Of a DNA stretch of 64,000 bases, positions 17,755 to 60,572 are shown piece by piece. Numbering within the stretch: the first letter of the stretch is position 1; the number at the start of each line of letters is the position of its first letter. The notes beneath the pieces are model-generated. The model made no database searches, was not told the DNA's origin, and saw only the letters and a program-made list of their open reading frames with translations. The stretch lies in assembly GCF_002077945.1 (NCBI RefSeq), contig NZ_LVYD01000044.1, positions 248,001-312,000 of the forward strand. The letters are read 5' to 3'. The stretch comes from Niastella vici (lineage in GTDB: Bacteria > Bacteroidota > Bacteroidia > Chitinophagales > Chitinophagaceae). Both the position numbers and the translations under genes were made by a program.

Positions 17755-17818
17755 CAAAAATAGCATCAGAAATTATCAAAATTGTGGTGGTTTCAACTTG
17801 TAGTCAACACGAGATTTG
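17755..17818 (+). promoter_or_regulatory. Copy E of the six-copy direct-repeat promoter element
   Basis: Half-site 1 AAAATAG is at 17757-17763 and half-site 2 AAAATTG at 17778-17784, 21 bp apart. TATC precedes the second half-site and GGTTT follows it, as in the other copies. The -7 box GAGATTTG (17811-17818) lies 33 bp after the second half-site. It begins 11 bp after the GH92 stop, so the DUF3472 gene has its own promoter. Confidence 0.7.
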
Positions 17819-17861
17819 CTCTCCTGCCAATCGGGACTATATGCATACGCCAACCATAACG

Positions 17862-19151
17862 ATGAATTGTAAGAAATTTAGCGGCTTTATTATTCTTTGT
17901 TTTTTTCTAAATATCCCTGCCTTTGCTGAAAATGATTCTGCTTTAATTCTTCCCATAGCCGGTAATACCTGGGCGCGGGGCAATACAGGTGGTGTAGACG
18001 TTATTACCGATGCAGGCATTGAAAACTGGAAAAATGCCGCCACCCAATTCGATACGTATGTGCGCATTGATCACCCGGGATCAATAAAGCTCAGGATCAA
18101 AGCTAAAACAGAAGGGGAATGCCAGCTGCGTATTGCTATTAAAGATAAATTCAACCCGGTAGTGATCAGGGGCAATGAATTTCAACTCTATGATGCGGGT
18201 ACCTGGCAAATAAAAGATACCGGTTATATCAGGATCACGCTTAGTGGTGTTTCAACAACCGGTAAACAGATAGCCGATGTAAGCGATTATGAAATAAGTG
18301 GCTCTGCCACCAGGTCAGGAGTAAACTTTGTAAGATCAAATGAAGGCAACTTTCATTATTGGGGGCGCAGAGGGCCTTCGGTACACCTCAGCTATCCGTT
18401 CGACGAAAGCATTAACGCGCAATGGTTTTATAATGAAGTAACCGTTCCCGCAAAACAGGATGTCATTGGCTCCTATTTTATGAGCATTGGTTTTGGTGAA
18501 GGTTATTTTGGAATACAGGTGAACTCAGCCACAGAGCGAAGAGTGCTATTTTCAGTATGGAGCCCTTATAGCACCGATGATCCTAAAAGCATTCCGCAAA
18601 ATATGCGGATCGAAATGCTAAGGAAAGGCAGCGATGTTCATACCGGTGAATTTGGCAGTGAAGGTTCTGGCGGACAAAGCTATCTGCGTTACAACTGGAA
18701 AGCAGGTACAACTTATAAATTCTTATTGAAGGGGGAACCGGATGGCAATAATAACACGGTATATACCGCCTGGTTTTTTGCTCCTGAAAAAAGCGAATGG
18801 ATGCTGATCGCTTCCTTCAAACGGCCCCAGACAAATACTTACTTAAAGCATTTCCATTCTTTTTTGGAAAACTTTATTCCGGAACAGGGTAATATAGAAA
18901 GACAGGTGTTGTTCGGCAATCAGTGGACCGGTGATGCGAATGGAAACTGGATAGAACTTACAAAAAGCATTTTTACCTACGACAATACCGCAGCAAAAGG
19001 ATACCGCATGGATTATGCAGGCGGTGTTTTAAACGGTAATTTTTATTTAAGAAACTGCGGATTCTTTAATCAGCATACACCTTTAAGATCCGGGTTCACC
19101 CGCACAAAGCGAAATAGTAAACCTGTCATCGACCTGGAGAAACTGCCTTAG
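17862..19151 (+). CDS. Exported DUF5077/DUF3472 protein
   Basis: A 429-residue exported protein (signal peptide about 1-22, NIPAFAEN). Residues 25-135 match DUF5077 (GNTWARGNTGGVDVITDAGIENW, then a beta-sandwich). Residues about 165-370 match DUF3472 (APSVHLSY-type core GPSVHLSYPF, AQWFYNEVTVP, GSYFMSIGFGEGYFGIQVN, LFSVWSPYSTDDP). DUF3472 proteins often accompany glycan-degrading loci and have no established reaction; a lectin-like or esterase-assisting role is only a guess. Starts at 17841 and 17862 are both possible; 17862 gives the shorter signal peptide, while 17841 matches the leader length of other genes with the same promoter element. It follows the mannosidase operon but is separated from it by copy E. 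Confidence 0.8.
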   Translation: MNCKKFSGFIILCFFLNIPAFAENDSALILPIAGNTWARGNTGGVDVITDAGIENWKNAATQFDTYVRIDHPGSIKLRIKAKTEGECQLRIAIKDKFNPVVIRGNEFQLYDAGTWQIKDTGYIRITLSGVSTTGKQIADVSDYEISGSATRSGVNFVRSNEGNFHYWGRRGPSVHLSYPFDESINAQWFYNEVTVPAKQDVIGSYFMSIGFGEGYFGIQVNSATERRVLFSVWSPYSTDDPKSIPQNMRIEMLRKGSDVHTGEFGSEGSGGQSYLRYNWKAGTTYKFLLKGEPDGNNNTVYTAWFFAPEKSEWMLIASFKRPQTNTYLKHFHSFLENFIPEQGNIERQVLFGNQWTGDANGNWIELTKSIFTYDNTAAKGYRMDYAGGVLNGNFYLRNCGFFNQHTPLRSGFTRTKRNSKPVIDLEKLP

Positions 19152-19205
19152 GGCGCAGTAAAATTCATGCAAACGGTTGCGGAATAAACGCATTACTGAA
19201 AGTGG

Positions 19206-19213
19206 TATATTTG
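19206..19213 (+). promoter_or_regulatory. -7 promoter box before the first ECF sigma gene
   Basis: TATATTTG is an exact match to the Bacteroidota housekeeping -7 consensus TAnnTTTG. It lies 110 bp upstream of the ECF sigma start in the only intergenic stretch available. No clear -33 box is visible at the usual spacing. Confidence 0.5.
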
Positions 19214-19323
19214 AAACAGATCATTGCTTTTAATCATAAACCCCGGAAGAAAGCTTCTTATCCATTTACTCAAAAGATCATAGTTAAATGCGCCGTTTAT
19301 TATTTAATTAGTAGCGAGTGAAT

Positions 19324-19911
19324 ATGATTTGCCTGCATAATGAAAAGGAACTGCTGAAAAATGTAGCGGAAGGTAACCAGGCTTCATTTGGTATTATCTA
19401 TGAAGCTTATCACGATGCCCTTTGCCAGTTTGTGCAGAAATACGTCAAAGCAACAGACCTGGCCAGTGATCTTGTACAGGATGTATTTGCCCATATCTGG
19501 GTTAAACGGGTTGATTTACCGGCTGTTGATTCTTTCGGCGCTTATATTTTCACTTCCGTTCGCAATCATACACTTAATTTTTTAAAAAAGGCTTCCCGGG
19601 AAAATACCCTGAAAGCAGCGATACTGCATAATTATCAACCGGCAGTAGGAAATGCCGATTATCATTTGCTGGCAAGTGAGTACAGGCAGTTCATACAGGA
19701 TATTCTTAACACCCTTCCGCCACAAACACGCACCGTTTTTCAGCTTTGCCGGGAAGAAGGCATGTCGTACGACGAAGCGGCCAGCCATCTCGGCATTTCA
19801 CGCAATGCAGTGAAAAAACATATGGTGCGCTCACTCAAATTATTCCGCGAGAAACTGCATTCCGATCCGCATTCAGCTTTGCTGTTGTTACTATTCTTTA
19901 TTAAGTCCTGA
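19324..19911 (+). CDS. ECF RNA polymerase sigma factor (FecI-like), PUL 1
   Basis: A 195-residue sigma-70 family protein with regions 2 and 4. Region 2 is FGIIYEAYHDALCQFVQKYV, then DLVQDVFAHIWVKR and AYIFTSVRNHTLNFLKK. Region 4 is LNTLPPQTRTVFQLCREEGMSYDEAASHLGISRNAVKKHMVRSLK. It is typical of Bacteroidota sigma factors paired with FecR and SusC. The ATG at 19324 is preferred over GTG at 19318. The anti-sigma gene follows after 81 bp. It should direct transcription of the SusC/SusD genes at 21256-26250 when SusC senses ligand (established model for sigma/FecR/SusC trios; its use here is inferred). Confidence 0.93.
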   Translation: MICLHNEKELLKNVAEGNQASFGIIYEAYHDALCQFVQKYVKATDLASDLVQDVFAHIWVKRVDLPAVDSFGAYIFTSVRNHTLNFLKKASRENTLKAAILHNYQPAVGNADYHLLASEYRQFIQDILNTLPPQTRTVFQLCREEGMSYDEAASHLGISRNAVKKHMVRSLKLFREKLHSDPHSALLLLLFFIKS

Positions 19912-19937
19912 ATTTATTTCAAAAAAAAATTATAAAA

Positions 19938-19945
19938 GGGGTACC
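19938..19945 (+). promoter_or_regulatory. Motif GGGGTACC between ECF sigma and anti-sigma genes
   Basis: GGGGTACC lies 55 bp upstream of the FecR start, after a nine-base A tract. The matching position of the second sigma/FecR pair carries GGGGTAAC (46066-46073), 50 bp upstream of FecR and also after an A tract. It may be part of an autoregulated promoter of the anti-sigma gene; the role is inferred. Confidence 0.4.
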
Positions 19946-19992
19946 CTGCTTTCAGTAGAAGGTTGTCATCATGGTATATTAAATAATTGTTA

Positions 19993-21105
19993 ATGGAAGA
20001 AAATTCCCCTTATTATAAGGAATTGATCCGCCGGTACAGAGATAGTAAGGCGACTGAAGAAGAGCTGGAAGTTTTTTTTCATTTATTGAGCGAGGGTACT
20101 ATCAACCAGGAGTTGGAAGACGTAATGAATGAGGATATGCCAGGGGAAGAAAGAACGGTTCATCGCATCCCTTTTTATAAACTCACGGCTGTACGGGTGG
20201 CGGCCGCTGTGCTGCTGATACTGGCTACGGCTGGTGGTTACTGGCTTTCGAAAAAAAGACGGGAGTCTCCATTACTTTCAGATAACAAGCCGCTTATAAA
20301 GCATGATCTGCCACCCGGCGGAAACAAGGCTATCCTGGAGTTGGCCGATGGTTCTTCCATTGTGCTCGACAGCGCCTCAAATGGTACCCTCTCGCGGCAG
20401 GGCGCCACAGAAATTTCAAAGAAAGATGGCATGCTGGCTTATAACCAGGCTGGAAAAAAGCAGGGTGAAATTCTTTTCAACACAATAAAAACACCAAGAG
20501 GCGGGCAGTACCAACTTAAATTGGCAGATGGTACGAAGGTTTGGCTGAACGCCGCATCTTCTCTCCGTTTCCCCGCAGCCTTTTCAGGTAACGTAAGAAA
20601 AGTGGAACTAACCGGCGAGGCCTATTTTGAAGTGGCGAAGAATGCCAAAATGCCTTTTATTGTACAGGAAGGCGGAATGAGTGTGCAGGTACTGGGTACT
20701 CATTTTAATGTGAATGGTTATGATGATGAAGATGCAGTGAGAACCACCTTACTCGAAGGCTCGGTAAAAGTTTCGAAAGGTGGCGCCTCAGTTATGTTAA
20801 AGCCTGGAGAACAGACATCCGTATCCCATACATCCCAACTGTCCCAACCCATCCCGGTTCAGACAGATGAGGTAATGGCCTGGAAAAACGGCCTGTTCTA
20901 TTTCAATGGCGAAAATATAGCCGTTATCATGCGGCAATTAGCCCGGTGGTACGATTTCGACGTAACGTATGAAAAGCCGGTAAAGGAGAAGTTCTATGTG
21001 AAAATAAACAGGAACACCAACGTTTCCAATGTTTTTAAAATACTGGAAACAACAGGCGGTGCGCATTTTAAAATTGAAGGAAAGAAGATCACGGTAATGC
21101 CGTAA
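19993..21105 (+). CDS. FecR-type anti-sigma factor, PUL 1
   Basis: A 370-residue inner-membrane protein. Residues 1-60 form the cytoplasmic sigma-binding part (YYKELIRRYRDSKATEEELE). A transmembrane helix spans about 66-85 (AVRVAAAVLLILATAGGYWL). The periplasmic FecR domain follows (FNTIKTPRGGQYQLKLADGT, VWLNAASSLRFPAAF, KVELTGEAYFEVAKN, FIVQEGGMSVQVLGTHFNV). It ends with a DUF4974-type module (FYFNGENIAVIMRQLARWYDFDVTYE). The ATG at 19993 is chosen over an upstream TTG. It should hold the upstream sigma factor inactive and release it after contact with the signal extension of SusC 1. Confidence 0.93.
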   Translation: MEENSPYYKELIRRYRDSKATEEELEVFFHLLSEGTINQELEDVMNEDMPGEERTVHRIPFYKLTAVRVAAAVLLILATAGGYWLSKKRRESPLLSDNKPLIKHDLPPGGNKAILELADGSSIVLDSASNGTLSRQGATEISKKDGMLAYNQAGKKQGEILFNTIKTPRGGQYQLKLADGTKVWLNAASSLRFPAAFSGNVRKVELTGEAYFEVAKNAKMPFIVQEGGMSVQVLGTHFNVNGYDDEDAVRTTLLEGSVKVSKGGASVMLKPGEQTSVSHTSQLSQPIPVQTDEVMAWKNGLFYFNGENIAVIMRQLARWYDFDVTYEKPVKEKFYVKINRNTNVSNVFKILETTGGAHFKIEGKKITVMP

Positions 21106-21200
21106 ACATAGTGGTTGCTCCAAAAGAAAGCTGGAGGCGCTTGCAACACCCCCAGCCAATAGTTTGGGTAACCCATAATGAAGGTCCCGCAAGACTGCTT

Positions 21201-21222
21201 TCCTCCCGACAGGTCGGGAGGA
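21201..21222 (+). terminator. Hairpin between FecR 1 and SusC 1
   Basis: A perfect 9-bp stem (TCCTCCCGA, loop CAGG, TCGGGAGGA) lies 95 bp after the FecR stop and 33 bp before the SusC start. No T-run follows. An equivalent hairpin lies between FecR 2 and SusC 3. It could terminate the sigma/anti-sigma message or structure the SusC leader. Confidence 0.45.
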
Positions 21223-21255
21223 GTATACATTACTTAACCCAAACAAAACAAAGTT

Positions 21256-24200: not shown

Positions 24201-24630
24201 TACCCTGTTCTTCCAGGGAGCGGCTGCAGTAAAGGCCATGGCCGGAACCCTTATTGGGAGCGTTGGACCAGATGTAGGGAAACCCACCAGTGTATTCCTG
24301 GACAGATGGACGGCTGCTAACCCATCTGCTGCTTTTCCCCGGCTTTGGTACAGTTACAAACAAAATGATCCGCTTACGAACCCTTCCTCTTTCTGGGTAA
24401 AGGACGCATCGTACCTGCGCCTCAAAAACGTGATGGTTGGTTATAATATTCCGCAGGCAATTGTTAAAAAGGTGGGACTGAATAATGTGAAAGTGTACTA
24501 CAGTGGTCAAAATTTGCTGACGTTCACAAAGTTTTACAAATGGATAGATCCAGAAACAGGATCAGCCGGCAGCATCTACAACTATCCCCAGGTAAAGATC
24601 AACACATTTGGAGTTAACGTAACATTCTAA
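21256..24630 (+). CDS. SusC-like TonB-dependent outer-membrane transporter with STN signalling domain, PUL 1
   Basis: A 1124-residue protein: signal peptide to about residue 45 (ends TGYSQ); STN domain at about 46-115 (LSQQNAPLEKVLKEIEKQSGYTFAYTG), which talks to the FecR anti-sigma; carboxypeptidase-like regulatory beta-sandwich at 135-210 (VKGVVTDAAGKALSGASVNLKG); TonB-box region VDEVVVIGYGTQKR; plug (IPNAIQGKMAGVTV, SMSVLKDAASSAIYGARASNGVILITTKKG); and a beta-barrel ending with Phe (FGVNVTF). It imports oligosaccharides with SusD 1, 12 bp downstream. The start is supported because CAAAGTTATG is shared with the start of SusC 3. The STN domain fits regulation by the adjacent ECF/FecR pair. 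Confidence 0.96.
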   Translation: MDLKSLCFPLHAYRRKLNQTLRIVNSTILLLLVACLQVSATGYSQRITLSQQNAPLEKVLKEIEKQSGYTFAYTGTMVDKAKNVSVSIVNGSLEQALNLCFNGQPFTYTIIEKTIVIKPAIVVEAAPKPAPPPIEVKGVVTDAAGKALSGASVNLKGSTQGTSTDKNGNFLIQLPEGGGKLVISYVGYEPYELAVSRSGTVKVALKLAETKVDEVVVIGYGTQKRLNVTGAVSTVSSKDIADRPITNIPNAIQGKMAGVTVTTSNGQPGRDAGTIRVRGIGSGIGSGGASTTPAVIIDGVPGSIGDLNPNDIESMSVLKDAASSAIYGARASNGVILITTKKGKKGSLQMRYNMYAGVQDITRKPDFLPSWQQAELYNEARANENAPLKWTDTDIQLFKDGTDKTGAHPNTDWLSLLYSEPGWQQNHNVSVSGGDERTNYMVSLGYFDQKGNIQKSRYQKFNGLINLNSQLNKKIGVNAGLGFLYAPFQEPVSTYATSFSQIIRMANRISNTVPDKWENGALGYVSDGSAMAWLQSPSFNRWQNYTVTANAGADWSPLPGLHVKPSFGYRLAIGQQQQYVSDIQYYKGGPAGTPLTPTKYQGPNNLLNATDRTVYTLVQGLAEYTKSIGHHNMKLLAGASQEYSVYNIFSGSRQGFLNNSLTQLNVAPALGQEAKGSSNDWALQSVFGRFNYNFREKYLLEANLRFDGSSRFAKGHRWGKFPSVSAGWVLSKENFFSGLTPAIDLLKVRAFWGKLGNQQIANNYAYFESIAGGQVYSFNQTLVTGVAPNAGANPLLQWEETESSGVGIDAAFLANKLTLSLDYFERKTENPLMRSQAGAPYAFTPPYVNVDGAMTNKGIEVSAGYRDAIGAFNYSVNGNFTYIKNKVTRLTGGRVINDNTFYDVGTPLYSLYGYETEGIYQKTADITGTAVINNKVSAGDLKYKDQNDDGKIDAKDKVFLGTYFPKITYGFTLFSGYKNFELTLFFQGAAAVKAMAGTLIGSVGPDVGKPTSVFLDRWTAANPSAAFPRLWYSYKQNDPLTNPSSFWVKDASYLRLKNVMVGYNIPQAIVKKVGLNNVKVYYSGQNLLTFTKFYKWIDPETGSAGSIYNYPQVKINTFGVNVTF

Positions 24631-24642
24631 AAAGCCCGACAA

Positions 24643-26250: not shown

Positions 26251-26280
26251 TGTGCCAGCACATTTATTTAGGAGAACATT

Positions 26281-26355: not shown

Positions 26356-26368
26356 ATTAAAACAAAAT

Positions 26369-28717: not shown

Positions 28718-28725
28718 AAAGTGCT

Positions 28726-34078: not shown

Positions 34079-34441
34079 AAAGCTACTCTTGGTGTCTGTG
34101 AATTGATTCAAAAGTGAAAAATACACAATCTGTTCAAATAACAATTATATGTGTGCTTATTTTTTTAGCAGCGGAAGAATGGTCGTATTTCCCCTGCAAC
34201 TGATCGTGATAATTATTGAAGGAGGCAGGTGCCGCAGTTTACACAATCGATTGCGTGATCTTTAAGTTAAACATTTTATCGAATATTATAAATTGAATGA
34301 ATGTTCAATCAAAATAATTAATAATTTAGTAAGGGAAAATTGCTAATTAGTTAAACTGCCAAAAGGAATTATTGCAACTGTAATTGTGAATTTTGCAACG
34401 ATCAGGATTCATGATTTTTAACTCATTTACAAAATCTTAAA
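34079..34441. promoter_or_regulatory. Divergent intergenic region between TetR and SusC 2
   Basis: This AT-rich stretch of 363 bp holds no convincing gene. It contains two palindromes. One is a near-perfect 16-bp palindrome, ACACAATCGATTGCGT (34241-34256, one mismatched pair), whose AATCGATT core fits LacI-family operators. The other is ATTGAA-N6-TTCAAT (34292-34309), a TetR-like spacing. GAATTTTG close to the SusC start could serve as a -7 box. SusC 2 is the only importer pair here without an ECF sigma gene, so this region probably carries its control sites. Confidence 0.5.
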
Positions 34442-40476: not shown

Positions 40477-40663
40477 CAATAGCATTTGAAAACCGGCAGG
40501 GGAGTATTGCGATATTTCCCTGCTGTGAACCAGGCAACTTCAATAATATTGATAAAAACAGATGCAATATTTACAAATAACAGGGCCTGTATTTTTTGTC
40601 AGTCATTTTAATGGATATTTGGGACCCGATACAAAATGATTCGCTGACAAATAACTGCTTTGC

Positions 40664-43027: not shown

Positions 43028-43091
43028 TAAAAAAAGCATCAGTCTTTATCAAAATAGCGTCGGTTTTAAAGCCGCTATAAAGGTAATTTCG
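43028..43091 (+). promoter_or_regulatory. Copy A of the six-copy direct-repeat promoter element
   Basis: Half-site 1 AAAAAAG is at 43030-43036 and half-site 2 AAAATAG at 43051-43057, 21 bp apart. TTATC precedes and CGGTTTTAAA follows the second half-site. The -7 box TAATTTCG (43084-43091) is 33 bp after half-site 2, one base shorter than in copies B, C, D and F. The alpha-galactosidase-like gene starts 63 bp downstream. Confidence 0.75.
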
Positions 43092-43154
43092 TATGCATAA
43101 CTTGTACATTAAAACCGAACATTCTCCATACCCCACTATTTGAGGAATTTATCT

Positions 43155-45332
43155 ATGATAAAGTTTTTTAGACCTATTGTCATTTTCGCTGTCAGTTTTC
43201 AAACAGTTATAGTGCAGGCCCAACAAATAGCTTCAGCAATTACAGGCGACTGGTTGGTAAAACCGGTGTTGCAAAAAGCCGGAATGCATATCAGCGATGA
43301 TAAAAAGAATATTACCCTGTTCAATGGCCTGGTCGAAAGAACTTTCCGGCTGTTTCCTAATGTAGCATGCACTGGTTATAAAAATATAACAACCGGTCAG
43401 CAATTGATACGGGCCGTAATGCCCGAAGCAGTGATCACTATTAACGGTAAAGAGTATAATGTAGGCGGATTGTACGGTCAAAAGGAAAAAGCCTACTTAT
43501 TGCCCCAATGGCTCGATGGTTTTACCGCCGGTGAAAATGATTTCCGGTTTGTCAGTTATGACACCGGTGAATTAAAACCCTTCATAAACTGGCAAGCCAG
43601 GGATTGGTGGTCGTCAAATACCCAACATCCGAAGGGAAAACAGATCAGCTTTGCCTACCGGAATAATGAAGCATCGCTGAAAGACCTGCTGGTAAAAGTG
43701 CATTATGCTGTGTACGATGGTTTGCCTTTAATGGCCAAGTGGGTTACCATCGAAAATAAAGGAACAGCTACCTATAAAATTGACGGGCTGAAAAATGAAG
43801 TGCTGGCATTGGTGGAAGAGGAGAGCGCCGTGGTAGGTAAGCCGGAGATCATGAAAAAGCAGCAGGGCATTTATATTGAAACCAATTATGCTTTCAACAA
43901 TGCTATGCGGTATGAGCTCAGCGACCAAACCACCCACTGGAAAGTTGATAAGTCTTATACCTCACAGGTTAATTATGATTATAACACGCCATGCGTGTTG
44001 GAAATATATCCCGATAAGGCGCCGGGCATTGAGCTGCAACCGGGAGAGTCATTGACCTCCGTTCGCAGTTTTGAATTGCTGATGGATAGCTATGACCGGG
44101 AAAGAAGAGGATTGGCAGTAAGAAAAATGTACAGGGCCGTTGCTCCCTGGACCACTTCGAACCCCATCTTTATGCACCTGGTTAGCCGGAATGATGAAGA
44201 GGTGCAGCATGCGATCGATCAATGCGCTGCCACGGGATATGAAGCATTGATCCTGAGCTTTGGCAGTCACATCAATATGGAAGATACTTCTGCCGCCAAT
44301 ATTATGCGCTGGAAAAAAAATGCCGACTACGCGCATAGCAAAAAAATAAAGATCGGCGGTTATTCCCTGTTCAGTTCGCGCCGCATCAGTGAAGAAGATG
44401 ATGTAATAAACCCGTTAACGGGAAAAACAGGCGGCGCCTTCTTTGGAAATGCGCCCTGTTTCGGAAGCAGGTGGGGCCTGGCCTACCGGGATAAAATAAA
44501 AACATTCTTTACGCAAACCGGTTTCGACATCTGGGAAAACGATGGACCGTATCCCGGCGATGTATGTGCATCTACCGTGCACCCCGGGCATAAAGGGTTA
44601 GATGATTCGCAATGGCGGCAAATGGAAACGCAGAAAGAATTGTACAAATGGCTGAATGAAAAAGGAGTTTATATCAATGCGCCCGATTGGTATTTTTTAG
44701 ATGGAACCAATAAGATAGCGATCGGTTACCGGGAAGTGAATTTTTCTTTGCCCAGGGAAGATCAAAAAATATTGAACAGGCAAAACATTTACGATGGCAC
44801 CTGGGAAAAAACACCTTCCATGGGCTGGGGCTTTGTACCGCTTACCCGCTACCAGGGCGGTGGAAAGGAAGCAATACTGGAACCATTGAGCGAACACCTC
44901 ACCGATTATGAACAATTAATGATACAATACTATGGCGCCGGTGTGCAGGCTTGTTACCGTGGACCAAGATTGTATGATACCGATGCCACCAAACAAAAGG
45001 TCATTGAAGTGATCAGCTGGTATAAAAAATACCGCGATATCCTTAACTCCGATATTATTCACCTGCGCCGGGCCGATGGCCGTGACTGGGATGGAATACT
45101 GCATGTGAATGCCGCTTTGAAAACAAAAGGATTGCTGATGCTGTACAATCCTACAAAAGAAAGAATAACGCGCACCATTAAAGTGCCGCTTTATTACACA
45201 GGTTTAAGCACTGTTGCTGTTGTTGCAGAAAAAGGGAATACACGAAAGACCTATAAGCCTGACCGGAATTACGATATAGAGTTGTCATTTAGCATAGAGC
45301 CAGAAGGGTACACGTGGTTTACAATTGAATAA
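43155..45332 (+). CDS. Alpha-galactosidase-like protein (clan GH-D/GH36-like), exported
   Basis: A 725-residue exported protein (signal peptide ending IVQAQ at about 22). An N-terminal beta-supersandwich (ITLFNGLVERTFRLFPNVACTGYKN, LLVKVHYAVYDGLPLMAKWVTIENKG) precedes a TIM barrel (ALILSFGSHINMEDTS, ADYAHSKKIKIGGYSLFSS, TGFDIWENDGPYPGD). This order matches GH36-like enzymes, but the usual KxD nucleophile and SDxxD acid motifs are not obvious; the Asp in WENDGP or the Asp in INAPDWYFLDG are candidates. It could be an alpha-galactosidase, alpha-N-acetylgalactosaminidase or an unassigned family. Its single-gene unit starts with promoter element copy A. The ATG at 43155 directly precedes the signal peptide. 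Confidence 0.7.
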   Translation: MIKFFRPIVIFAVSFQTVIVQAQQIASAITGDWLVKPVLQKAGMHISDDKKNITLFNGLVERTFRLFPNVACTGYKNITTGQQLIRAVMPEAVITINGKEYNVGGLYGQKEKAYLLPQWLDGFTAGENDFRFVSYDTGELKPFINWQARDWWSSNTQHPKGKQISFAYRNNEASLKDLLVKVHYAVYDGLPLMAKWVTIENKGTATYKIDGLKNEVLALVEEESAVVGKPEIMKKQQGIYIETNYAFNNAMRYELSDQTTHWKVDKSYTSQVNYDYNTPCVLEIYPDKAPGIELQPGESLTSVRSFELLMDSYDRERRGLAVRKMYRAVAPWTTSNPIFMHLVSRNDEEVQHAIDQCAATGYEALILSFGSHINMEDTSAANIMRWKKNADYAHSKKIKIGGYSLFSSRRISEEDDVINPLTGKTGGAFFGNAPCFGSRWGLAYRDKIKTFFTQTGFDIWENDGPYPGDVCASTVHPGHKGLDDSQWRQMETQKELYKWLNEKGVYINAPDWYFLDGTNKIAIGYREVNFSLPREDQKILNRQNIYDGTWEKTPSMGWGFVPLTRYQGGGKEAILEPLSEHLTDYEQLMIQYYGAGVQACYRGPRLYDTDATKQKVIEVISWYKKYRDILNSDIIHLRRADGRDWDGILHVNAALKTKGLLMLYNPTKERITRTIKVPLYYTGLSTVAVVAEKGNTRKTYKPDRNYDIELSFSIEPEGYTWFTIE

Positions 45333-46045: not shown

Positions 46046-46065
46046 AAAAAACTTTTCCTGCTTTA

Positions 46066-50831: not shown

Positions 50832-50866
50832 TATTCCTGATTGTTGTCAGAAAAAAGCTTCATACA

Positions 50867-52744: not shown

Positions 52745-52775
52745 TTAGTGTTTCATTTGTGGCAGTTTGTTTGGT

Positions 52776-52814
52776 AATGCAGGCCATTAATTATTAATGC
52801 GCCTGCATTTTTTT
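52776..52814 (+). terminator. Rho-independent terminator after SusD 3
   Basis: A 9-bp outer stem AATGCAGGC/GCCTGCATT (52776-52784, 52801-52809) continues into an inner CATTAA/TTAATG stem and is followed by a T run to 52814. It clearly ends the PUL 3 importer transcript. Confidence 0.85.
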
Positions 52815-52874
52815 CTACAATGGTTTTTTTCCTGGTAACAGGGACGCTTTGTTTTGAAATGAGCCAGCCCCGGG

Positions 52875-52939
52875 CAAAAATGACACCGGTTATTATCAAA
52901 ATAGAACAGGTTTTAAAACAGGCAATGCAGGTAATTTCG
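52875..52939 (+). promoter_or_regulatory. Copy B of the six-copy direct-repeat promoter element
   Basis: Half-site 1 AAAATGA is at 52877-52883, followed by CACCGGTT. Half-site 2 AAAATAG is at 52898-52904, 21 bp on, followed by AACAGGTTTTAAAA. The -7 box TAATTTCG (52932-52939) is 34 bp after half-site 2. The GH95 ATG is 81 bp downstream. Confidence 0.8.
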
Positions 52940-53020
52940 CCGCTGGTAACTACATCCCCGGGTTTGGTAAAAGGCAATTGATGCCGTCGATATATCAAAA
53001 AACTACCCCTATATTTAATA

Positions 53021-55243
53021 ATGATTATGAAAACAACCGGCATCCGATTAGTCTTTAGTAGTATATTACTATTTTTTGTACTCACAGTTCAGGCATTTGG
53101 AAATGGAGGTGAGCTATGGTATACACGTCCGGCCGAAAAATGGGAGCAGGACGCGTTACCAATAGGTAACGGCAGAATGGGGGCGATGATCTTTGGCGGA
53201 ATAGCGCGCGATCATCTTCAGTTTAATGAACAAAGCCTGTGGTCGGGCGATAATAACTGGGATGGAGGCTATGATACAGGCGATCATGGTTTTGGTTCGT
53301 ACCGTAATTTCGGGGATGTATTTATTGACTTCACACATTCCGCAACGGCCAGCCTGTACCGGCGGGCGTTGAATATTTATACCGGGGTACATACTACCGC
53401 ATTTCAAATTAACGAGGTGCACTATACGCGCCAGGCCTTTGCCAGCTATCCCGATCAGGTAATGGTCTTCAGGTATGCAGCTGATAAAAAGCAGGCCCTT
53501 TCGGGCGCTATATCGCTGGTGAGCGCGCAGGGGGCAACCACTGTTGTACAAGGCAATCAGTTGAGCTTTCAGGGCGAAATGCCCAATCATTTACGGTATG
53601 CCACTATGATAAAGGTGGTGAGCGAAGGCGGGCAGGTTCAGGTGAAAGAGAACAAACTCTTTTTCAGCAATTGTAACACGTTGGTGTTATATGTTTCGGC
53701 CCGCACCAATTATAAACCGGCTTACGCGGCCAACTGGCGGGGCGGCGACCCAATGCCGTTGATCGATAAGGAATTGATAAATGCCCTTCGCACCGGTTAT
53801 CCGGCATTACTAAGCCGCCATACAAAAGATATTACCGCATTGACCCGTGCCGCAATAATAGATGTGGGAAGCACAACCGATTCCATTTTACAACTTCCCG
53901 TTGATGTGCGGTTGGGCAAATATGCGGCCGGTGGCACTGATCCCGACCTTGAAGAAATGCTATTTCAATATGGCCGATATCTGCTTGTCAGCACTTCGCG
54001 ACCCGGCGGTTTACCTGCCAATTTGCAGGGGTTATGGAATAACAGCAACAATCCGCCATGGGCCAGCGACTATCACAACAACATCAATATCCAGATGAAT
54101 TACTGGTCTGCTGAATCTACTAATTTATCTGCCTGTCATCTTCCCCTCATCGACTTTATTGTAGCAGCACAGGAACCCTGCCGTATTGCCACCCGCAAAG
54201 CTTTTGGTGAAAACGTGCGTGGCTGGACGGCCCGCACCAGTCAAAGTATTTTTGGCGGTAATGGCTGGGAATGGAACATTCCGGCCAGCGCCTGGTACGC
54301 TCAGCATGTGTTTGAGCATTGGGCATTTACTGCCGATACGGTTTACCTGCGCAATACCGCTTATCCTATACTGAAAGAGATCTGTAATTTTTGGGAAGAC
54401 CGGCTGAAGAAAACGCCCGATGGAAAACTGGTGGTGCCCAATGGCTGGTCGCCCGAACACGGGCCAAGGGAAGATGGAGTGATGCATGATCAGCAACTGA
54501 TCTGGGACCTGTTTCAAAATTACCTCGATGCGGCCAAAGCACTGCAGGTTGATAACGCTTACCGGCAAAAGGTTGCTTCTATGCAACAGCAACTGGCGCC
54601 TAATAAGATCGGGAAATGGGGACAGCTGCAGGAGTGGCAGGAAGACCGGGACGACCCCGATGATCTGCACCGCCATACTTCCCATTTGTTTGGGGTGTTT
54701 CCGGGTAAGCAAATAACCCCTGATCGTACACCGGAGCTGGCCAATGCCGCGGTTATCTCATTGCTTGCCCGTAGCGGTAATTACGGGAAGAACAGCAATA
54801 AAGCATTTACGGTGGAGCTAACTGTTGGCGACAGCCGCCGATCATGGACGTGGCCCTGGCGATGCGCCTTGTGGGCAAGGTTAAAACAGGGCGATAAAGC
54901 TGGTATGATGCTTCGCGGATTGCTCACTTATAATACATTGCCCAATTTGTTTACCAGCCATCCGCCTTTTCAGCTCGATGGAAACCTGGGCATCAGCGGT
55001 GCCATACCCGAAATGCTGCTGCAAAGCCAGGACGGTGAAATTCATTTGCTGCCGGCCCTGCCTGCCGGCTGGGCGGTTAGCGGTTCATTTAAGGGGTTAA
55101 AAGCCCGGGGTGGTTATAGCGTTAATTGTGTCTGGAGAAACGGTAAGGTTATTCAATATAACATTACTTCAAAACAACCCCGTAAGGTTTTGGTACATAT
55201 AAATGGAATGGTAAAAGAAATTACAACAAAGCAGGGGGCATGA
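53021..55243 (+). CDS. GH95 family alpha-L-fucosidase (or alpha-L-galactosidase)
   Basis: A 740-residue exported enzyme (signal peptide to about residue 27). The GH95 hallmarks are present in order: LWYTRPAEKWEQDALPIGNGRMGAMIFGG, FNEQSLWSGD, WASDYHNNINIQMNYWSAESTNL with the conserved Asn, VVPNGWSPEHGPREDG with the probable acid Glu, HRHTSHLFGVFPGKQI, and HPPFQLDGNLGISGAIPEML with the conserved Asp. GH95 inverts terminal alpha-1,2-fucose; some members take alpha-L-galactose. Starts at 53021 and 53027 are equivalent. It is a single-gene unit between the PUL 3 terminator and copy C of the promoter element. Confidence 0.94.
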   Translation: MIMKTTGIRLVFSSILLFFVLTVQAFGNGGELWYTRPAEKWEQDALPIGNGRMGAMIFGGIARDHLQFNEQSLWSGDNNWDGGYDTGDHGFGSYRNFGDVFIDFTHSATASLYRRALNIYTGVHTTAFQINEVHYTRQAFASYPDQVMVFRYAADKKQALSGAISLVSAQGATTVVQGNQLSFQGEMPNHLRYATMIKVVSEGGQVQVKENKLFFSNCNTLVLYVSARTNYKPAYAANWRGGDPMPLIDKELINALRTGYPALLSRHTKDITALTRAAIIDVGSTTDSILQLPVDVRLGKYAAGGTDPDLEEMLFQYGRYLLVSTSRPGGLPANLQGLWNNSNNPPWASDYHNNINIQMNYWSAESTNLSACHLPLIDFIVAAQEPCRIATRKAFGENVRGWTARTSQSIFGGNGWEWNIPASAWYAQHVFEHWAFTADTVYLRNTAYPILKEICNFWEDRLKKTPDGKLVVPNGWSPEHGPREDGVMHDQQLIWDLFQNYLDAAKALQVDNAYRQKVASMQQQLAPNKIGKWGQLQEWQEDRDDPDDLHRHTSHLFGVFPGKQITPDRTPELANAAVISLLARSGNYGKNSNKAFTVELTVGDSRRSWTWPWRCALWARLKQGDKAGMMLRGLLTYNTLPNLFTSHPPFQLDGNLGISGAIPEMLLQSQDGEIHLLPALPAGWAVSGSFKGLKARGGYSVNCVWRNGKVIQYNITSKQPRKVLVHINGMVKEITTKQGA

Positions 55244-55265
55244 TCTACTGCTATAGTTCGAGGCG

Positions 55266-55330
55266 CAAAAATAGCACCGGTTCTTATCAAAATAGCGTAG
55301 GTTTTAAGATGGCTAAAGCGGGTAATTTCG
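55266..55330 (+). promoter_or_regulatory. Copy C of the six-copy direct-repeat promoter element
   Basis: Closest to consensus: AAAATAGCACCGGTT (55268-55282), then AAAATAGCGTAGGTTTT (55289-55305), starting exactly 21 bp apart. The -7 box TAATTTCG (55323-55330) is 34 bp after half-site 2. Only 16 bp separate it from the GH38-like ATG, implying a very short leader. Confidence 0.85.
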
Positions 55331-55346
55331 CGCTAATTGCTTGTTT

Positions 55347-58300
55347 ATGAAAAAGGGAATATTTTTCGTAGCTATTGTTTTCATTTGTAATGTGGTTATA
55401 GCCCAGCTGCAGGCCCCATACCTCGGTACTGTTCAATGGGTGAACGGCTATGCAAAAGATGTGCAGGGTGAAACCATCAGCTATTTTTCGGCTTACCCCG
55501 ATTATGCCAACATCGCTTTATTAACACGCTGCACCGATGGCGCCAAAGTAATTGAATGGGAAACCGCCCCGGTGCCCAAAAAGACCAGCGGCAATTATAT
55601 TTACTTCAGCTGGGTGGCAGCCCATTCTTCCGGAACCAGTAGCGGCAACCGTAATTTTGATCTGTATGTGAATGATCAAAAGGTGCTCACGTTTACTACC
55701 ATGCCTGGTAACCAATTGCCCACCTGGACGTATGCTGCACCCGACAGTTCCCGGCTTGTTTTTCAACAAACGAAAAGAGATGGCGCCAATGATGCGCATG
55801 GCCTTATTTTTCTGCGATTGCCTGTAGCCCGGGTTAAACGGGGGCAATTTGCAAAGATCAAAATTGTTGGCGCGGCCCAGCAAAGCAATGACTGGTTCAT
55901 GACCTTCAAATTTTCCTTTGAAGAAAAAGCAGATGTTGAGCCAATGCCTTTCAGGCTCAAAGACGGAAAACAACCTGTGGCTTTAACTGTGCTGCATTTT
56001 GGAAAAGAGGCGTTGGCGCATGTTGCTATAAACCAGAAAGAGGCATATTCATTTTTATGTAAGAATGGTGTAAACCATTTTGAGATACCTGTAAATGCCG
56101 TACAGCAGGAAGATAGCCTGCAGGTGCGGGTTTCAATAGGACAAAAAATACTGGCGAACCGGTATATAAAATTACAACCGGTTATTTACCGGGAACTTCA
56201 CCTTATTCATCATTCGCACACCGATATCGGTTATTCGCATTTGCAACCGGAAGTGCTGCGGATACAAATGAAGAACATTGACGATGCACTGCATATGATC
56301 GATAAAACCAACACTTTGCCGGATGCGGCCAGGTTCAAATGGAATATTGAGTCGTTATGGGTGGTAGAAAATTACCTGAAACAGGCATCGGCCAGTCAAA
56401 AGGAAAAGTTTATCAGGGCCGTTAAAGAAGGCAACATCTGTTTGTCGGGCCTGTATGCCAATATTCTTACCGGTTTAAGTGAGCCGGAAGAAGTATTTCA
56501 TTATACTGATTATGCAGCGCAATTGCGGGAGCAATTTGGATTGCGCATCAATAGTGCCATGATAAGTGACATTCCGGGTTATGCCTGGACAACCGTAACA
56601 GGACTTGCCAAAGGAGGCATCAGGTATTTTTCAAGTGGCCCAAACTTCATGGGCGAAACACATCCATATCTTGGCGACAGAGCAGGGCATTTTGTAAAAG
56701 CCTGGGGCGATAAACCTGTTTGGTGGACGTCCCCGTCGGGTGAAGAAAAGATCTTATTCTGGACAGCTGGTAAAGGCTATTCTTCCTGGCATGGTACGGC
56801 CATAGGTGGCGTGTTTGAGCGCGGCCCCAAAAAAATTGCCGCTTATCTGAACGAACTGAGGCTGCATAATTATCCGTATGATCTGGTGCAATGGCGGTAC
56901 AATGTAGTATCGGATAACGGGCCCATTGATTCCACCATTTCTGAGTTTGTTGAACAATGGAATAATAAATATGCATCGCCGAAGATCGTTTTAAACACCA
57001 CGGAGAAAGTCTTTGAGCAGTTCGAACAAAAGTATGGGGCCAGCATTCCTGTAGTAAAAGGCGATATAACACCCTATTGGGAAGACGGCGCCTTGTCAAC
57101 CGCCGCCGAAGAAGGAATGAACAGGCGGAACAGCCTCAGGCTGCAACAATTAACAAACCTGTATGCGATGCTTGCCCCTGAAAAGTACAACCCCGCACAT
57201 TTTTATGAAGCATGGAAGAACATCCTGTTATTTCATGAACATACCTGGGGCGCCTATAACAGTGTCAGCGAGCCCGACAAGCCTTTTGTAACGGAACAAT
57301 GGCGAATAAAAAAGCAATTCCTGCTCGATGCCGGTGAGCAGATCGATCAGTTGGAAACCGGTCTTTTGAATGATTTTGTTCAACCCGGCTCAAAGAAAAT
57401 AGCAGTTATAAATACATCGTCTTTTGTTCGCGACGGTTTGGTGGTATTACCAGTGGGGGTTACAGGAAATTCAGTGAAAGATCTTTCCGGCAAAATATTC
57501 CCCTTGCAAAAACTGAGTAATGGCAGCAGTATTTTTTGGGCCGGTCAGGTGCCACCCCTGGGAACAACCATCTATACGATCACAGATAATAAAGCAGTGC
57601 CCGGGTATAACGGTTTCCATTACACCGACAGCTCGGTATCGAATGGGAAGATCACTTTGCGCTGGGATAAAAAAGGAAGTATAATACAGTTGTCTGACAG
57701 TACGGGCTTTAACTATGCGGAAACGTTTAATGGGCAGGGGTTGAACAGTTTTTGGTATGTGCCTGGTTTGGATCCCGCAAAAGCGTTGACCAATGATGCC
57801 GTGCAGGTAAAAATAGTAGAAAATGGTGCGGTAGCCATTACCATCGCGTTTGTATGTAACGCCCCGGGTGTTAACCGTTTTGAACGACAGATCACTTTAT
57901 ATGCAGAAAGTAACGAAGTAGTAATAGAGAATACAATAGACAAGAAGGCAATCCGGGAAAAGGAAAGTCTTCATTTCGGTTTTCCGTTCCGGTCATCTTT
58001 GAACCAGGTAACCCTTGATGCCGGGTATGGTACCATAAAGTATTTGGCCGATCAGTTGCCGGGGTCAAACAAAGACTATTTATATACGCGGAACTGGCTC
58101 GATCTGTCTCAGTCTGATAAAGGAATACAGTGGATGGTGCAGGAAGCGCCGCTGCTTGAACCGGGTAGTATGATCGATGAACGCCGTACTATCTATGGTG
58201 CGCATAAAGAATGGAAAAGCGAGGGAAATATAACCTCAACCTGGTTTAGTTATATTATGAACAATTACTGGCATACCAATTATAAGGCCGACCAGGATGG

Positions 58301-58667
58301 AGTAAGTAGTTACCGGTATTGTTTGAAACCGCATGGTATGTTCAGCAATAGCGAAACAGAAAAAGCAGCCATTGTGTTCAGTGCGCCATTACAGGGCTGG
58401 CTTGTTAAAGAAGAGGCTGCCTTACCCGGCTCTTTGTTTGAACTATCGAATGCGCGCATAGTGGTTACCAGTGTAACGCCGTTGAAAGAAGGCGGGTATA
58501 CAATTAGACTGTTTAACCCCGAACCGGCTGCAGAGCAAACGAACTTCCGTTGGGGTAAGCTCAGGCCTTCGCAATTGATAAATAGTCAAAACGGAAAAAT
58601 AATGGCCGCCGGCGATAGCATTATGTTACCGGGCCAGGGTGTGATCGACATGAAATTAGTTCCCTGA
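55347..58667 (+). CDS. GH38-like glycosidase with N-terminal beta-sandwich, copy B
   Basis: A 1106-residue exported protein (signal peptide ending VIAQ at about 20). Residues 20-200 form a beta-sandwich of galactose-binding look (GTVQWVNGYAKDVQGETISY, NFDLYVNDQKVLTF). The GH38-type catalytic domain starts near 285: HHSHTDIGYSH provides the H-x-D metal motif near 291-293, Asp in ISDIPGYAWT near 407 fits the nucleophile, and FHEHTWGAYNS gives a late His. Beta-rich C-terminal domains end with GQGVIDMKLVP. The motifs resemble the GH38-like protein at 10532 more than textbook mannosidases. Alpha-mannosidase activity is likely but not proven. The ATG at 55347 is preferred over TTG at 55341. Confidence 0.75.
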   Translation: MKKGIFFVAIVFICNVVIAQLQAPYLGTVQWVNGYAKDVQGETISYFSAYPDYANIALLTRCTDGAKVIEWETAPVPKKTSGNYIYFSWVAAHSSGTSSGNRNFDLYVNDQKVLTFTTMPGNQLPTWTYAAPDSSRLVFQQTKRDGANDAHGLIFLRLPVARVKRGQFAKIKIVGAAQQSNDWFMTFKFSFEEKADVEPMPFRLKDGKQPVALTVLHFGKEALAHVAINQKEAYSFLCKNGVNHFEIPVNAVQQEDSLQVRVSIGQKILANRYIKLQPVIYRELHLIHHSHTDIGYSHLQPEVLRIQMKNIDDALHMIDKTNTLPDAARFKWNIESLWVVENYLKQASASQKEKFIRAVKEGNICLSGLYANILTGLSEPEEVFHYTDYAAQLREQFGLRINSAMISDIPGYAWTTVTGLAKGGIRYFSSGPNFMGETHPYLGDRAGHFVKAWGDKPVWWTSPSGEEKILFWTAGKGYSSWHGTAIGGVFERGPKKIAAYLNELRLHNYPYDLVQWRYNVVSDNGPIDSTISEFVEQWNNKYASPKIVLNTTEKVFEQFEQKYGASIPVVKGDITPYWEDGALSTAAEEGMNRRNSLRLQQLTNLYAMLAPEKYNPAHFYEAWKNILLFHEHTWGAYNSVSEPDKPFVTEQWRIKKQFLLDAGEQIDQLETGLLNDFVQPGSKKIAVINTSSFVRDGLVVLPVGVTGNSVKDLSGKIFPLQKLSNGSSIFWAGQVPPLGTTIYTITDNKAVPGYNGFHYTDSSVSNGKITLRWDKKGSIIQLSDSTGFNYAETFNGQGLNSFWYVPGLDPAKALTNDAVQVKIVENGAVAITIAFVCNAPGVNRFERQITLYAESNEVVIENTIDKKAIREKESLHFGFPFRSSLNQVTLDAGYGTIKYLADQLPGSNKDYLYTRNWLDLSQSDKGIQWMVQEAPLLEPGSMIDERRTIYGAHKEWKSEGNITSTWFSYIMNNYWHTNYKADQDGVSSYRYCLKPHGMFSNSETEKAAIVFSAPLQGWLVKEEAALPGSLFELSNARIVVTSVTPLKEGGYTIRLFNPEPAAEQTNFRWGKLRPSQLINSQNGKIMAAGDSIMLPGQGVIDMKLVP

Positions 58668-58723
58668 TCATACGCTGCTTCATTTTCCCGTCACCTTTCT
58701 ATTGGTCAAATTAATTGGGGCGG

Positions 58724-58788
58724 GTAAAATAGCATCGGTTATTATCAAAATAGGTTAGGGTTTAAAGCAGACAATGCAGTTAATTTCG
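58724..58788 (+). promoter_or_regulatory. Copy D of the six-copy direct-repeat promoter element
   Basis: Half-site 1 AAAATAGCATCGGTT is at 58726-58740 and half-site 2 AAAATAGGTTAGG at 58747-58759, starting 21 bp apart. The -7 box TAATTTCG (58781-58788) is 34 bp after half-site 2. The GH29 ATG is 16 bp downstream, the same as for copy C. Confidence 0.85.
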
Positions 58789-58804
58789 CCATTATTACTT
58801 ATAG

Positions 58805-60397
58805 ATGAAAGCCGGAAAATTCTTTGTTGTATTGCTAAGTTCAATACTGCCTGTTGCCACATTTTCACAACAAAAAGAGCTGTCCTGGGAAGAGTTGCGT
58901 AATCAATACCAGTTTCCCAAATGGTATACAGAAGCCCGTTTCGGCATTTGGGTGCACTGGGGCGCACAAACCCAACCCGATAGTGGGGGAGGCTGGTATG
59001 CCCGTCACATGTATATGCAGGATGTAGGCAGCCAGGCCTGGGGAAAAAATGCATATCCTTATCACCTTCGCCACTACGGTCATCCGTCAGAGATAGGGTA
59101 TAAGGATGTGATCCACGCCTGGAAGGCCGAAAAGCTGGATACGGATTCGTTGCTGCGCTATTTCAAAAGCATCGGCGCTAAGTATTTTATGGCCCTGGCC
59201 AACCACCACGATCATTTCGATAATTTCAATTCTACCTACCATGCCTGGAACTCGGTAAATGTGGGCCCTAAAAAAGACATTATCGGGTTGTTCAAACAAT
59301 CGGCGGTTAAATATGGGATGCCGTTTGGCGTAAGCTCACATGATGATCGTTTCCTCGGTTGGTGGCTGTCTGCATTTGGAGCGGATAGCTCTGGCCCCAA
59401 AAAAGGTATTCCCTATGATGGCAACATGACCAAAGAAGATGGCAAGGGTAAATGGTGGGAGGGGTTAGACCCCGCCGATCTGTATGGCCTTCCGCCGGCC
59501 AAAAGAACACCTGAATGGATAGCCGGCGTGAAGAAAAATTATGTACAGCGGCAAATTGAACTGGTTACCAAATATGATGTGGATATGCTTTGGTTCGACG
59601 GATATGGATTTCCGTATGGCGATTATGGTAAACAGGTTTGCACGGCTTACTTCAATGATAACCTGCGCAAGCATGGAAAAATAACCGCGATCATTGCCGG
59701 TAAGTTTGACAAAGAACCATCGATAGCAAAAGATATTGAGCGTGGCAGCGCTACGGAAATATTGCCTTATCCCTGGCAGGGTATAATCACTTTCACCGAC
59801 TGGTTTCTTAAATATGATAATCCGCCCATACATAATGCGCGTACCATTATTGAAGCGCTGGCCGATATGAACAGTAAGAATGGCAATCTGGTTTTAAATG
59901 TAGAGCTGCAACCTGATGGACGTATTCCCGGCTGGCAGAAAATGATCCTGGATACCATTGGCCGGTGGATTAACCGGAACGCCGCAGCCATTTATGCCAG
60001 CAAACCCTGGAAAACGTTTGGCGATAATATCGGCGGCAGGCAACAGGAGAAAATTATCAGCAACGCCGATCTCGCAGCAGTGAAAAAACAAAAAAGCAAT
60101 GACTTTAATGAACGTACTGTTGCAAGCAAGCCATATCCACAGGATGAAGTGCGGTTTACTACTGACAAGGGCAACCTGTACATCTTTGTGATGAACCCCG
60201 GCAAAGGTGGTGCTGTTACCATTCCCAGCCTGGGCTATCAATCGCCCTATAATTCAAAAAAAATAAGTTCGGTCCGTTTGTTGGGTTCCCGGCAAAAGAT
60301 CTCCTTTAAACAATCAGCGCAGGAATTGCGTTTGAACATCCCTGAAACACCTGGTGATACTTATACAAAAGTATTTGAAGTAAAAGGTGTGCTGTAA
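58805..60397 (+). CDS. GH29 family alpha-L-fucosidase
   Basis: A 530-residue exported enzyme (signal peptide ending TFSQQ at about 20). The GH29 TIM barrel shows PKWYTEARFGIWVHWGAQT near the start, then YFMALANHHDHFDNFNSTYHAWNSVN, and the nucleophile Asp265 in DMLWFDGYGFPYGDYG. ILPYPWQGIITF and NGNLVLNVELQPDGRIPGWQ complete the core, followed by a C-terminal beta domain. GH29 enzymes are retaining alpha-L-fucosidases for alpha-1,2/1,3/1,4/1,6 fucose; the subfamily cannot be told here. It is a single-gene unit between promoter copy D and a strong terminator. Confidence 0.94.
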   Translation: MKAGKFFVVLLSSILPVATFSQQKELSWEELRNQYQFPKWYTEARFGIWVHWGAQTQPDSGGGWYARHMYMQDVGSQAWGKNAYPYHLRHYGHPSEIGYKDVIHAWKAEKLDTDSLLRYFKSIGAKYFMALANHHDHFDNFNSTYHAWNSVNVGPKKDIIGLFKQSAVKYGMPFGVSSHDDRFLGWWLSAFGADSSGPKKGIPYDGNMTKEDGKGKWWEGLDPADLYGLPPAKRTPEWIAGVKKNYVQRQIELVTKYDVDMLWFDGYGFPYGDYGKQVCTAYFNDNLRKHGKITAIIAGKFDKEPSIAKDIERGSATEILPYPWQGIITFTDWFLKYDNPPIHNARTIIEALADMNSKNGNLVLNVELQPDGRIPGWQKMILDTIGRWINRNAAAIYASKPWKTFGDNIGGRQQEKIISNADLAAVKKQKSNDFNERTVASKPYPQDEVRFTTDKGNLYIFVMNPGKGGAVTIPSLGYQSPYNSKKISSVRLLGSRQKISFKQSAQELRLNIPETPGDTYTKVFEVKGVL

Positions 60398-60464
60398 GTT
60401 AAAGGACCGCCATAAATGATCTGGTGAGATGGCAAGCAGTCTCACAGTATAGACAAGCAATCTC

Positions 60465-60495
60465 CCGGGCCCGTTTCTACGGGCCTGGTTTTTTT
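60465..60495 (+). terminator. Rho-independent terminator after GH29
   Basis: The stem GGCCCGT/ACGGGCC (60468-60474 and 60479-60485, loop TTCT) is extended by CC/GG pairs with a G-T pair and followed by seven T (60489-60495). It isolates the GH29 unit from the GH20 promoter that begins 13 bp later. Confidence 0.88.
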
Positions 60496-60507
60496 AGCGC
60501 AGGAAGG

Positions 60508-60572
60508 CAAAAATACCATTGGTTAAAGTCAATATCGTTGCAATTTATCAGGGGCATCTACACCTAACTTTA
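60508..60572 (+). promoter_or_regulatory. Copy F (degenerate) of the six-copy direct-repeat promoter element
   Basis: Half-site 1 AAAATAC is at 60510-60516, with GGTT at the usual place. Half-site 2, AATATCG at 60531-60537, is weaker but exactly 21 bp away. The -7 box TAACTTTA (60565-60572) is exactly 34 bp after half-site 2. The GH20 ATG is 22 bp downstream. Confidence 0.6.

Follow-up and report, generated by a model that had tools for sequence, protein, structure and literature searches.

Niastella vici, a member of the Chitinophagaceae, carries on contig NZ_LVYD01000044.1 (C44; assembly GCF_002077945.1) a stretch of 64,000 nucleotides, C44:248001-312000, in which glycosidase genes lie together with SusC/SusD operons. 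This whole stretch is referred to here as the window, and positions without a contig name are counted from its first letter. An earlier note, made from the sequence alone, described six copies of a promoter element in which one AAAATAG word is followed 21 bp later by another and, 33-34 bp after the start of the second, by a -7 box. All six copies read as the note had claimed and align without gaps over the repeat, but a seventh, in reverse orientation near 40535, had been overlooked:

17755..17796, plus strand: direct repeat before a DUF5077/DUF3472 gene; -7-like GAGATTTG at 17811-17818
43028..43069, plus strand: direct repeat before the gene of a 730-amino-acid (aa) protein; -7 box TAATTTCG at 43084-43091
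52875..52916, plus strand: direct repeat before a GH95 gene; -7 box TAATTTCG at 52932-52939
55266..55307, plus strand: direct repeat before a GH38 gene, nearest to the consensus; -7 box TAATTTCG at 55323-55330
58724..58765, plus strand: direct repeat before a GH29 gene; -7 box TAATTTCG at 58781-58788
60508..60549, plus strand: weakest copy, before a GH20 gene; -7 box TAACTTTA at 60565-60572
40532..40573, minus strand: seventh copy, with the downstream GH92 gene (40664) on the other strand and no good -7 box

The function of the seventh copy is doubtful; an overlapping weaker match at 40556 hints at a third half-site there. The genes that follow the six forward copies are these:

17688..19151, plus strand: DUF5077 and DUF3472 gene, whose open reading frame (ORF) call begins upstream of the 17755 site
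43140..45332, plus strand: 730-aa protein, with tblastn homologs in target operons of three relatives
53021..55243, plus strand: GH95; closest solved relative FucOB, an alpha-1,2-fucosidase (683 bits)
55341..58667, plus strand: GH38-type protein (Pfam)
58805..60397, plus strand: GH29; closest solved relatives alpha-L-fucosidase / exo-alpha-L-galactosidase (219 bits)
60586..62700, plus strand: GH20; homologs of 60-62% lie within about 10-17 kb of the gene of the AraC-family protein discussed below in three relatives

The six copies are of graded strength (four strong, one good at 17755, one weak at 60508). The architecture is present in all of them, but both words occur literally, 21 bp apart, only at 55266 and 58724 (2/6); in the other four one or both are changed. 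A 28-base pattern, scanned with up to three mismatches, matched four times in the window compared with none in 100 shuffles, and five times in the 10.06-Mb genome, hence once outside the window, while the reversed-pattern control gave no match; the copies at 17755 and 60508 fail this pattern at three mismatches. With leave-one-out matrices five of the six copies outscored all other window positions, and the copy at 60508 (12.5) ranked below the reversed copy near 40535 (22.2) and above all remaining positions. When scored with a matrix built from 16 sites of this genome the six reach 40.6-48.9 bits, in-sample. A matrix of nine sites from relatives places the six and 40535 at the top seven positions of the window, with the 17755 site at 34.1 bits, a ranking that is partly circular because the nine sites had been picked with the own-genome matrix.

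A -7 box was accepted where at least five of the six defined positions of TAnnTTTG matched, with offsets counted from the start of the aligned site. As the note had claimed, such a box stands 33-34 bases past the start of the second AAAATAG word (offset 55 or 56) in 6/6 copies, each matching five of the six positions. The same TAnnTTTG sequence is given as the -7 box of the main sigma factor in the accessible part of a report on a flavobacterium (PMC9723704), and the window copies carry this feature of Bacteroidetes main-sigma promoters. The fixed distance would therefore place the second half-site over the -33 region. Among 32 assembled sites the box lies at 55/56 in 19, and the remaining offsets between 30 and 74 hold 0-2 each, a test that is partly circular for those own-genome sites that came from a 69-position profile.

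That profile, built from the six window copies and run on the whole genome, as the note had suggested, recovered its six, one further strong match on contig C2 (E 2e-8) and, below it, a series of weaker copies. The gene at the C2 site belongs to the endonuclease/exonuclease/phosphatase family, and homologs of 64-66% adjoin the AraC gene in two relatives. Outlying sites lie at GH97 genes on C76 and C113, at a GH31 gene on C43 and, as a pair, on C124.

The note had found no matching regulator gene in the window, and none was seen: a Pfam scan covering 26 of the window's 40 ORFs of at least 120 aa met, as regulators, GntR, TetR and two ECF-sigma/FecR pairs, with no AraC-type protein among them, and a genome search for HTH_18, with 150 of 182 candidates scored, listed no match within C44:248001-312000. 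The best candidate for the shared regulator lies beyond the window:

C44:334976-335869: candidate regulator of the AraC family, 298 aa, about 23 kb to the right of the window

Its Pfam matches are solely HTH_18 (PF12833; residues 212-289, E 1.2e-19) and HTH_AraC, with none to the kinase, receiver and sensor domains of hybrid systems. Two out-of-sample sites flank this gene, one of 27.9 bits about 0.8 kb beyond its 3' end and one of 15.5 bits immediately upstream of it. Two in-sample sites lie further away, one of 36.8 bits before a SusC/SusD pair near AraC (C44:329045) and one of 29.4 bits, 19 kb from AraC, before an 850-aa gene with a GH3 gene after it. The interval between these holds genes for aldo/keto reductase, MR/MLE-type dehydratase, SSS symporter and rhaM-type mutarotase; no site was found directly before the reductase gene in this genome. 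A near-copy of the AraC 3' end and terminator (C44 ~334000-334130; ~6000-6130 of fetched locus L039) adjoins the 27.9-bit site and looks like the remnant of a second AraC copy.

The association of element and regulator was compared across species with a matrix of 38 positions made from own-genome sites only, so that the sites of relatives are out-of-sample. Orthologs that share 59-76% identity with the AraC protein are encoded in Chitinophaga, Pedobacter, Sphingobacterium, Niabella, Terrimonas, Pinibacter and others. Within the family of N. vici, orthologs of 64-73% were found in 7 of 293 other genomes (eight copies), the next best protein having 40%. These eight loci (147 kb) hold 7 matches of at least 17 bits, in 5/8 loci, whereas control loci from other genomes (217 kb) reach a maximum of 14.1, none attaining 15 bits; none of 60 shuffles reaches 19 bits, compared with 6 observed matches. 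A scan of named genomes then supplied 57 loci, 55 of them with orthologs, of which 48 were kept after two unrelated and seven already seen had been dropped. In these 48 loci (987 kb) there are 94 sites of at least 15 bits, distributed over 44 loci, compared with 0-5 in shuffles (n=12, mean 1.33). Ninety of the 94 are intergenic. In matched 3-kb spans 15 bits was reached at 39/48 orthologs, 1/22 paralogs and 1/30 own-genome HTH_18 loci. Thus the AraC gene and the sites co-occur in two families, the Chitinophagaceae and Sphingobacteriaceae.

The sites of the relatives also retain the geometry. All but one (93/94) are in the orientation opposite to that of AraC, and 43 pairs of half-sites are spaced at 21 bp compared with 1, 1 and 3 pairs for the other spacings observed; these are tandem half-sites about 21 bp apart near a promoter, the arrangement of AraC/XylS-type operators. 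A -7 box stands at offset 55 in 28 of the sites and at 56 in 7 (35/94), a count free of the circularity noted above, these sites having been found with the 38-position matrix. A further scan with 25 sites gave best E values of 1.8e-5 to 0.0139 in the 7 ortholog-bearing genomes and of 0.0162 or worse in 12 comparison genomes, a thin margin; 9/25 training sites came from those seven genomes, and one of the comparison genomes (G008) may itself carry an ortholog. Free of this dependence are two sites of relatives outside the training set (E 2.9e-5 and 2.1e-4), each of which precedes a GH92 gene sharing about 40% identity with window 14549-17743. In the AraC tree the N. vici protein groups with that of Terrimonas pollutisoli (94/85, not starred). 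With no more than paralog-level AraC matches in the five listed genomes of the same genus, the gene may have been gained horizontally or lost repeatedly.

We consider it very likely (probability about 0.85), from the distribution of sites and orthologs, that the element is the operator of the one-component AraC-family activator at C44:334976-335869; the note's proposal of an AraC-type activator is thus supported for a protein of the stand-alone type. Two AraC molecules would bind the half-sites AAAATAGCatCgGTT and TCAAAATAGCnnnGGTT, two helical turns apart on the same face of the DNA. With the downstream half-site over the -33 region, the bound protein could contact the main RNA polymerase on the -7 box and act as a class II activator comparable to AraC at araI. 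In Escherichia coli AraC occupies tandem half-sites at araI1-I2 that are separated by two turns, and the second of them overlaps the -35 region; that promoter is proteobacterial, with a different sequence and ligand. The class II assignment is an interpretation of the geometry in the light of what is generally known of AraC, and we likewise infer binding, activation and ligand from sequence. The inducing monosaccharide would probably be released and broken down by the regulon itself.

Several observations weigh against this assignment. The 15.5-bit site is oriented away from the AraC gene, and at least six own-genome sites are not aimed at a flanking gene (40535, two on C43, two on C124 and C44:334132). 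The two C124 sites may belong to a split sensor/AraC-domain gene pair, which is about 7.5 kb away from them. Own-genome control loci (416 kb) contain two matches of at least 21 bits, both intragenic and one of them in a hybrid two-component gene. Among the relatives, three of the first eight loci stay below 13 bits (L134 12.2, L137 11.5, L135 5.3) and 4/48 of the further loci below 15 bits, and the -7 box has an unexplained second peak at offset 47 (12/94; at most 3 elsewhere). A narrow model, R1, run over 294 genomes of the family, gave five weak single matches in the 293 other than N. vici, all of them in genomes that lack the ortholog; it found no real relatives, and the broader matrix was therefore used. 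Given the misoriented sites, the C124 pair and the two intragenic matches, it should be emphasized that some matches will have no function or will be under a regulator other than the 298-aa AraC.

It could be argued that the element is bound instead by a hybrid two-component system (HTCS) encoded elsewhere in the genome, as the note had also envisaged. In the available part of a study of Bacteroides thetaiotaomicron such regulators share the geometry (PMC3878776), the HTH_18 search (139 matches listed, 150 of 182 candidates scored) includes 19 AraC-domain proteins of at least 900 aa, and the C124 pair has split sensor/AraC-domain genes in its vicinity. When the 16-site matrix was scanned over loci fetched around AraC-domain genes, however, the 20 loci around large AraC-domain proteins, including those of all 19 listed, held no intergenic site above 13.4 bits, while the sites accompany the stand-alone AraC across the 48 loci. 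The hybrid candidates were dropped, and we regard a regulator of this kind as very improbable. Several AraC paralogs of similar specificity might alternatively share the element, with the outlying sites (GH97 on C76 and C113, GH31 on C43, and C124) belonging to others. The many HTH_18 matches would allow this, some outlying sites are not aimed at a gene, and the outlying sites carry GTCAA where most window copies have ATCAA. GTCAA is, however, also found in most ortholog sites and in the window copy at 60508, and GH97 homologs lie in target operons of three relatives; sharing among paralogs thus seems unlikely, if clearly less so than a hybrid system. That the copies are chance similarities or a dispersed repeat without regulatory role, which the weak copies and the two strong intragenic matches might suggest, is hardly credible in view of the shuffle and control counts, the intergenic placement, the fixed -7 distance and the conservation over two families.

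The genes that follow the sites in relatives, labelled by tblastn or Pfam, indicate what the AraC protein would control. A downstream ORF is present at 89 of the 94 sites, and the first gene there is ORF5758-type (23), SusC_R-type (21), aldo/keto reductase (18) or ORF10545-type (15); five are unlabelled and seven other labels occur once each, including a further SusC, and a few first genes begin 0.5-2.4 kb from the site. A homolog of the reductase is present in 42/48 loci, and of the dehydratase, symporter and mutarotase in 41/48 each. The two large families were named after genes of N. vici:

L038:5758-8310 (C44, right of the window): ORF5758-type reference, large, no Pfam match
L038:10545-12866 (C44, right of the window): ORF10545-type reference, large, no Pfam match

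The ORF10545-type model comprises an alpha/alpha barrel and beta domains (predicted local distance difference test, pLDDT, 86), and its first fold matches are a polysaccharide lyase (BACCELL_00875; template-modelling (TM) score 0.36-0.40) and then GH116. The ORF5758-type model resembles alpha-galactosidases of the GH36/GH97/GH31 kind (pLDDT 80; query TM no higher than 0.35). These models suggest that both families are carbohydrate-active enzymes. Also found beside sites or regulator in relatives are GH109, GLAA-B-type (which we take to be GH110), alpha-galactosidase A type (presumably GH27), GH95 (by Pfam in L135, L136 and L210) and GH29 (L224) genes. GH109 and GLAA-B-type enzymes are of types that act on blood-group caps. 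At L138:12943-15322 of one relative, genes for GH109 and an APH-family kinase follow a site, and at L203:1715-3514 of another a GLAA-B-type gene lies in a target operon.

Thus the sub-regulon of glycosidase genes put forward in the note appears real, as a computational assignment, and the regulon is wider, including in relatives a sugar-catabolic operon. Upstream of the window's SusC/SusD operons and first mannosidase (GH92) operon, gene-strand scores are at most 4.0 bits apart from one of 11.6, compared with 40.6-48.9 for the six sites, in agreement with the note that these operons lack the element. That importers are controlled differently from enzymes holds for the three SusC/SusD pairs of the window but not for the pair near the regulator, with its 36.8-bit site, and it fails as a general rule, as SusC is the first gene after 22/89 sites in relatives.

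With respect to the signal, the inducer is probably an L-fucose-type monosaccharide; L-fucose itself is favoured, at about an even chance, and L-galactose or L-rhamnose are possible. For the fucosidases and catabolic genes that an L-fucose regulon would place under one site, candidates are present in GH29 and GH95, the reductase, the MR/MLE dehydratase, the SSS symporter and the mutarotase. The closest solved relative of the reductase is L-galactose dehydrogenase (85 bits) and that of the dehydratase 3,6-anhydro-L-galactonate cycloisomerase (124 bits). L-fucose and L-galactose share their configuration, and it is this, together with the closest relatives of the enzymes, that favours an L-fucose-type inducer; GH29 and GH95 here and the target operon of the relatives suggest L-fucose (or L-galactose or L-rhamnose). 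A signal of L-rhamnose or L-galactose rather than L-fucose is somewhat less probable. The same two enzyme relationships speak for this alternative. The mutarotase belongs to the L-rhamnose mutarotase (rhaM) family, and the conserved ORF10545-type protein has as its top fold match the lyase BACCELL_00875, which we take to remove rhamnose caps, and L-rhamnose is kept open for these reasons. Against both stands the presence of sites at GH29 and GH95 here and of GH95 and GH29 in the four relatives' loci named above. Homologs of the window GH29 and GH95 were, however, matched in only 1/48 and 2/48 loci, which makes the fucose reading weaker for the relatives, and searches of solved structures and folds did not settle the substrate.

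Taken together, these data lead us to a tentative view, for which the odds are a shade below even. A one-component AraC of Chitinophagaceae and Sphingobacteriaceae would sense free L-fucose (or L-galactose) and induce its oxidative breakdown together with the two unnamed families and a variable complement of cap-removing enzymes (GH29, GH95, GH109, GH110, GH97/GH27/GH36-like and GH20). Distant genes would join or leave by gaining or losing a 38-bp operator, and the ECF-sigma-linked SusC/SusD operons of the same locus would stay outside.

A 21-bp AraC repeat is of a known type, and it is this regulator/operator pair that appears to be newly assigned, by computation; no description of it was found in the literature searched, which lay largely outside subscription journals. 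According to the accessible part of PMC3870299, the L-rhamnose regulators of Bacteroides, Bacillales and Enterococcus have direct repeats of 21 bp, and like the present protein they are of the AraC family and control sugar catabolism. The likeness is one of description; here the operon encodes reductase, MR/MLE dehydratase, symporter and mutarotase, the glycosidase sites are dispersed and the taxa are others. As far as the available text of PMC3878776 goes, HTCS repeats of B. thetaiotaomicron average 21 bp (HTCS_Man has two 16-bp sites with a 5-bp spacer), and their glycan targets include mannosidases and SusC/SusD; in contrast, the regulator here is a one-component protein of 298 aa without kinase or receiver domain. 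The same text describes FucR, a GntR-family regulator with a single target operon, which has an L-fucose regulon in common with the one proposed here and differs in protein family and number of targets. CgrA of Zobellia galactanivorans, according to the accessible part of PMC5698469, is a stand-alone AraC required for polysaccharide use, and the carrageenan-induced set likewise extends to distant genes and to a distal SusC/SusD pair; the substrate is different here. This study indicates that one large mixed locus can hold separately controlled layers. As one regulator and its operator can be traced over dozens of species in two families, the evolution of a glycan regulon becomes testable, and the ORF10545 and ORF5758 families are uncharacterised regulon members worth assaying.

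Several minor observations accompany these results. An ATG at 17841 or further downstream is a more likely start of the DUF5077/DUF3472 gene than 17688. The 730-aa protein has no Pfam, NCBIfam or PDB sequence match, and the GH20 homologs of the three relatives have no own site reaching 15 bits. The six co-regulated genes are unrelated to each other, as the note held. The 11.6-bit match at 34367, before SusC (34442), has no -7 box at 55/56 and is probably due to chance, as probably is a 25.6-bit match (L090:8639; C58:571640) within a 1489-aa AraC-domain gene of hybrid two-component size. The C124 sites (C124:663538 and 663689; L044:9538 and 9689) are in tandem, about 151 bp apart, each with a -7-like box and an apparent inverted repeat (agcaccgtt...aacggtgct); promoters of small RNAs or a terminator that has been duplicated are possible interpretations, and the genes about 7.5 kb away are a 1046-aa ORF and a 260-aa AraC-domain ORF. 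Finally, window 2109-7980 holds xylose-isomerase-like, sugar transporter, ROK-cupin and GntR genes, and homologs of the GntR (51%) and ROK-cupin (46%) genes adjoin the AraC cluster in one relative (genome G074, L134).

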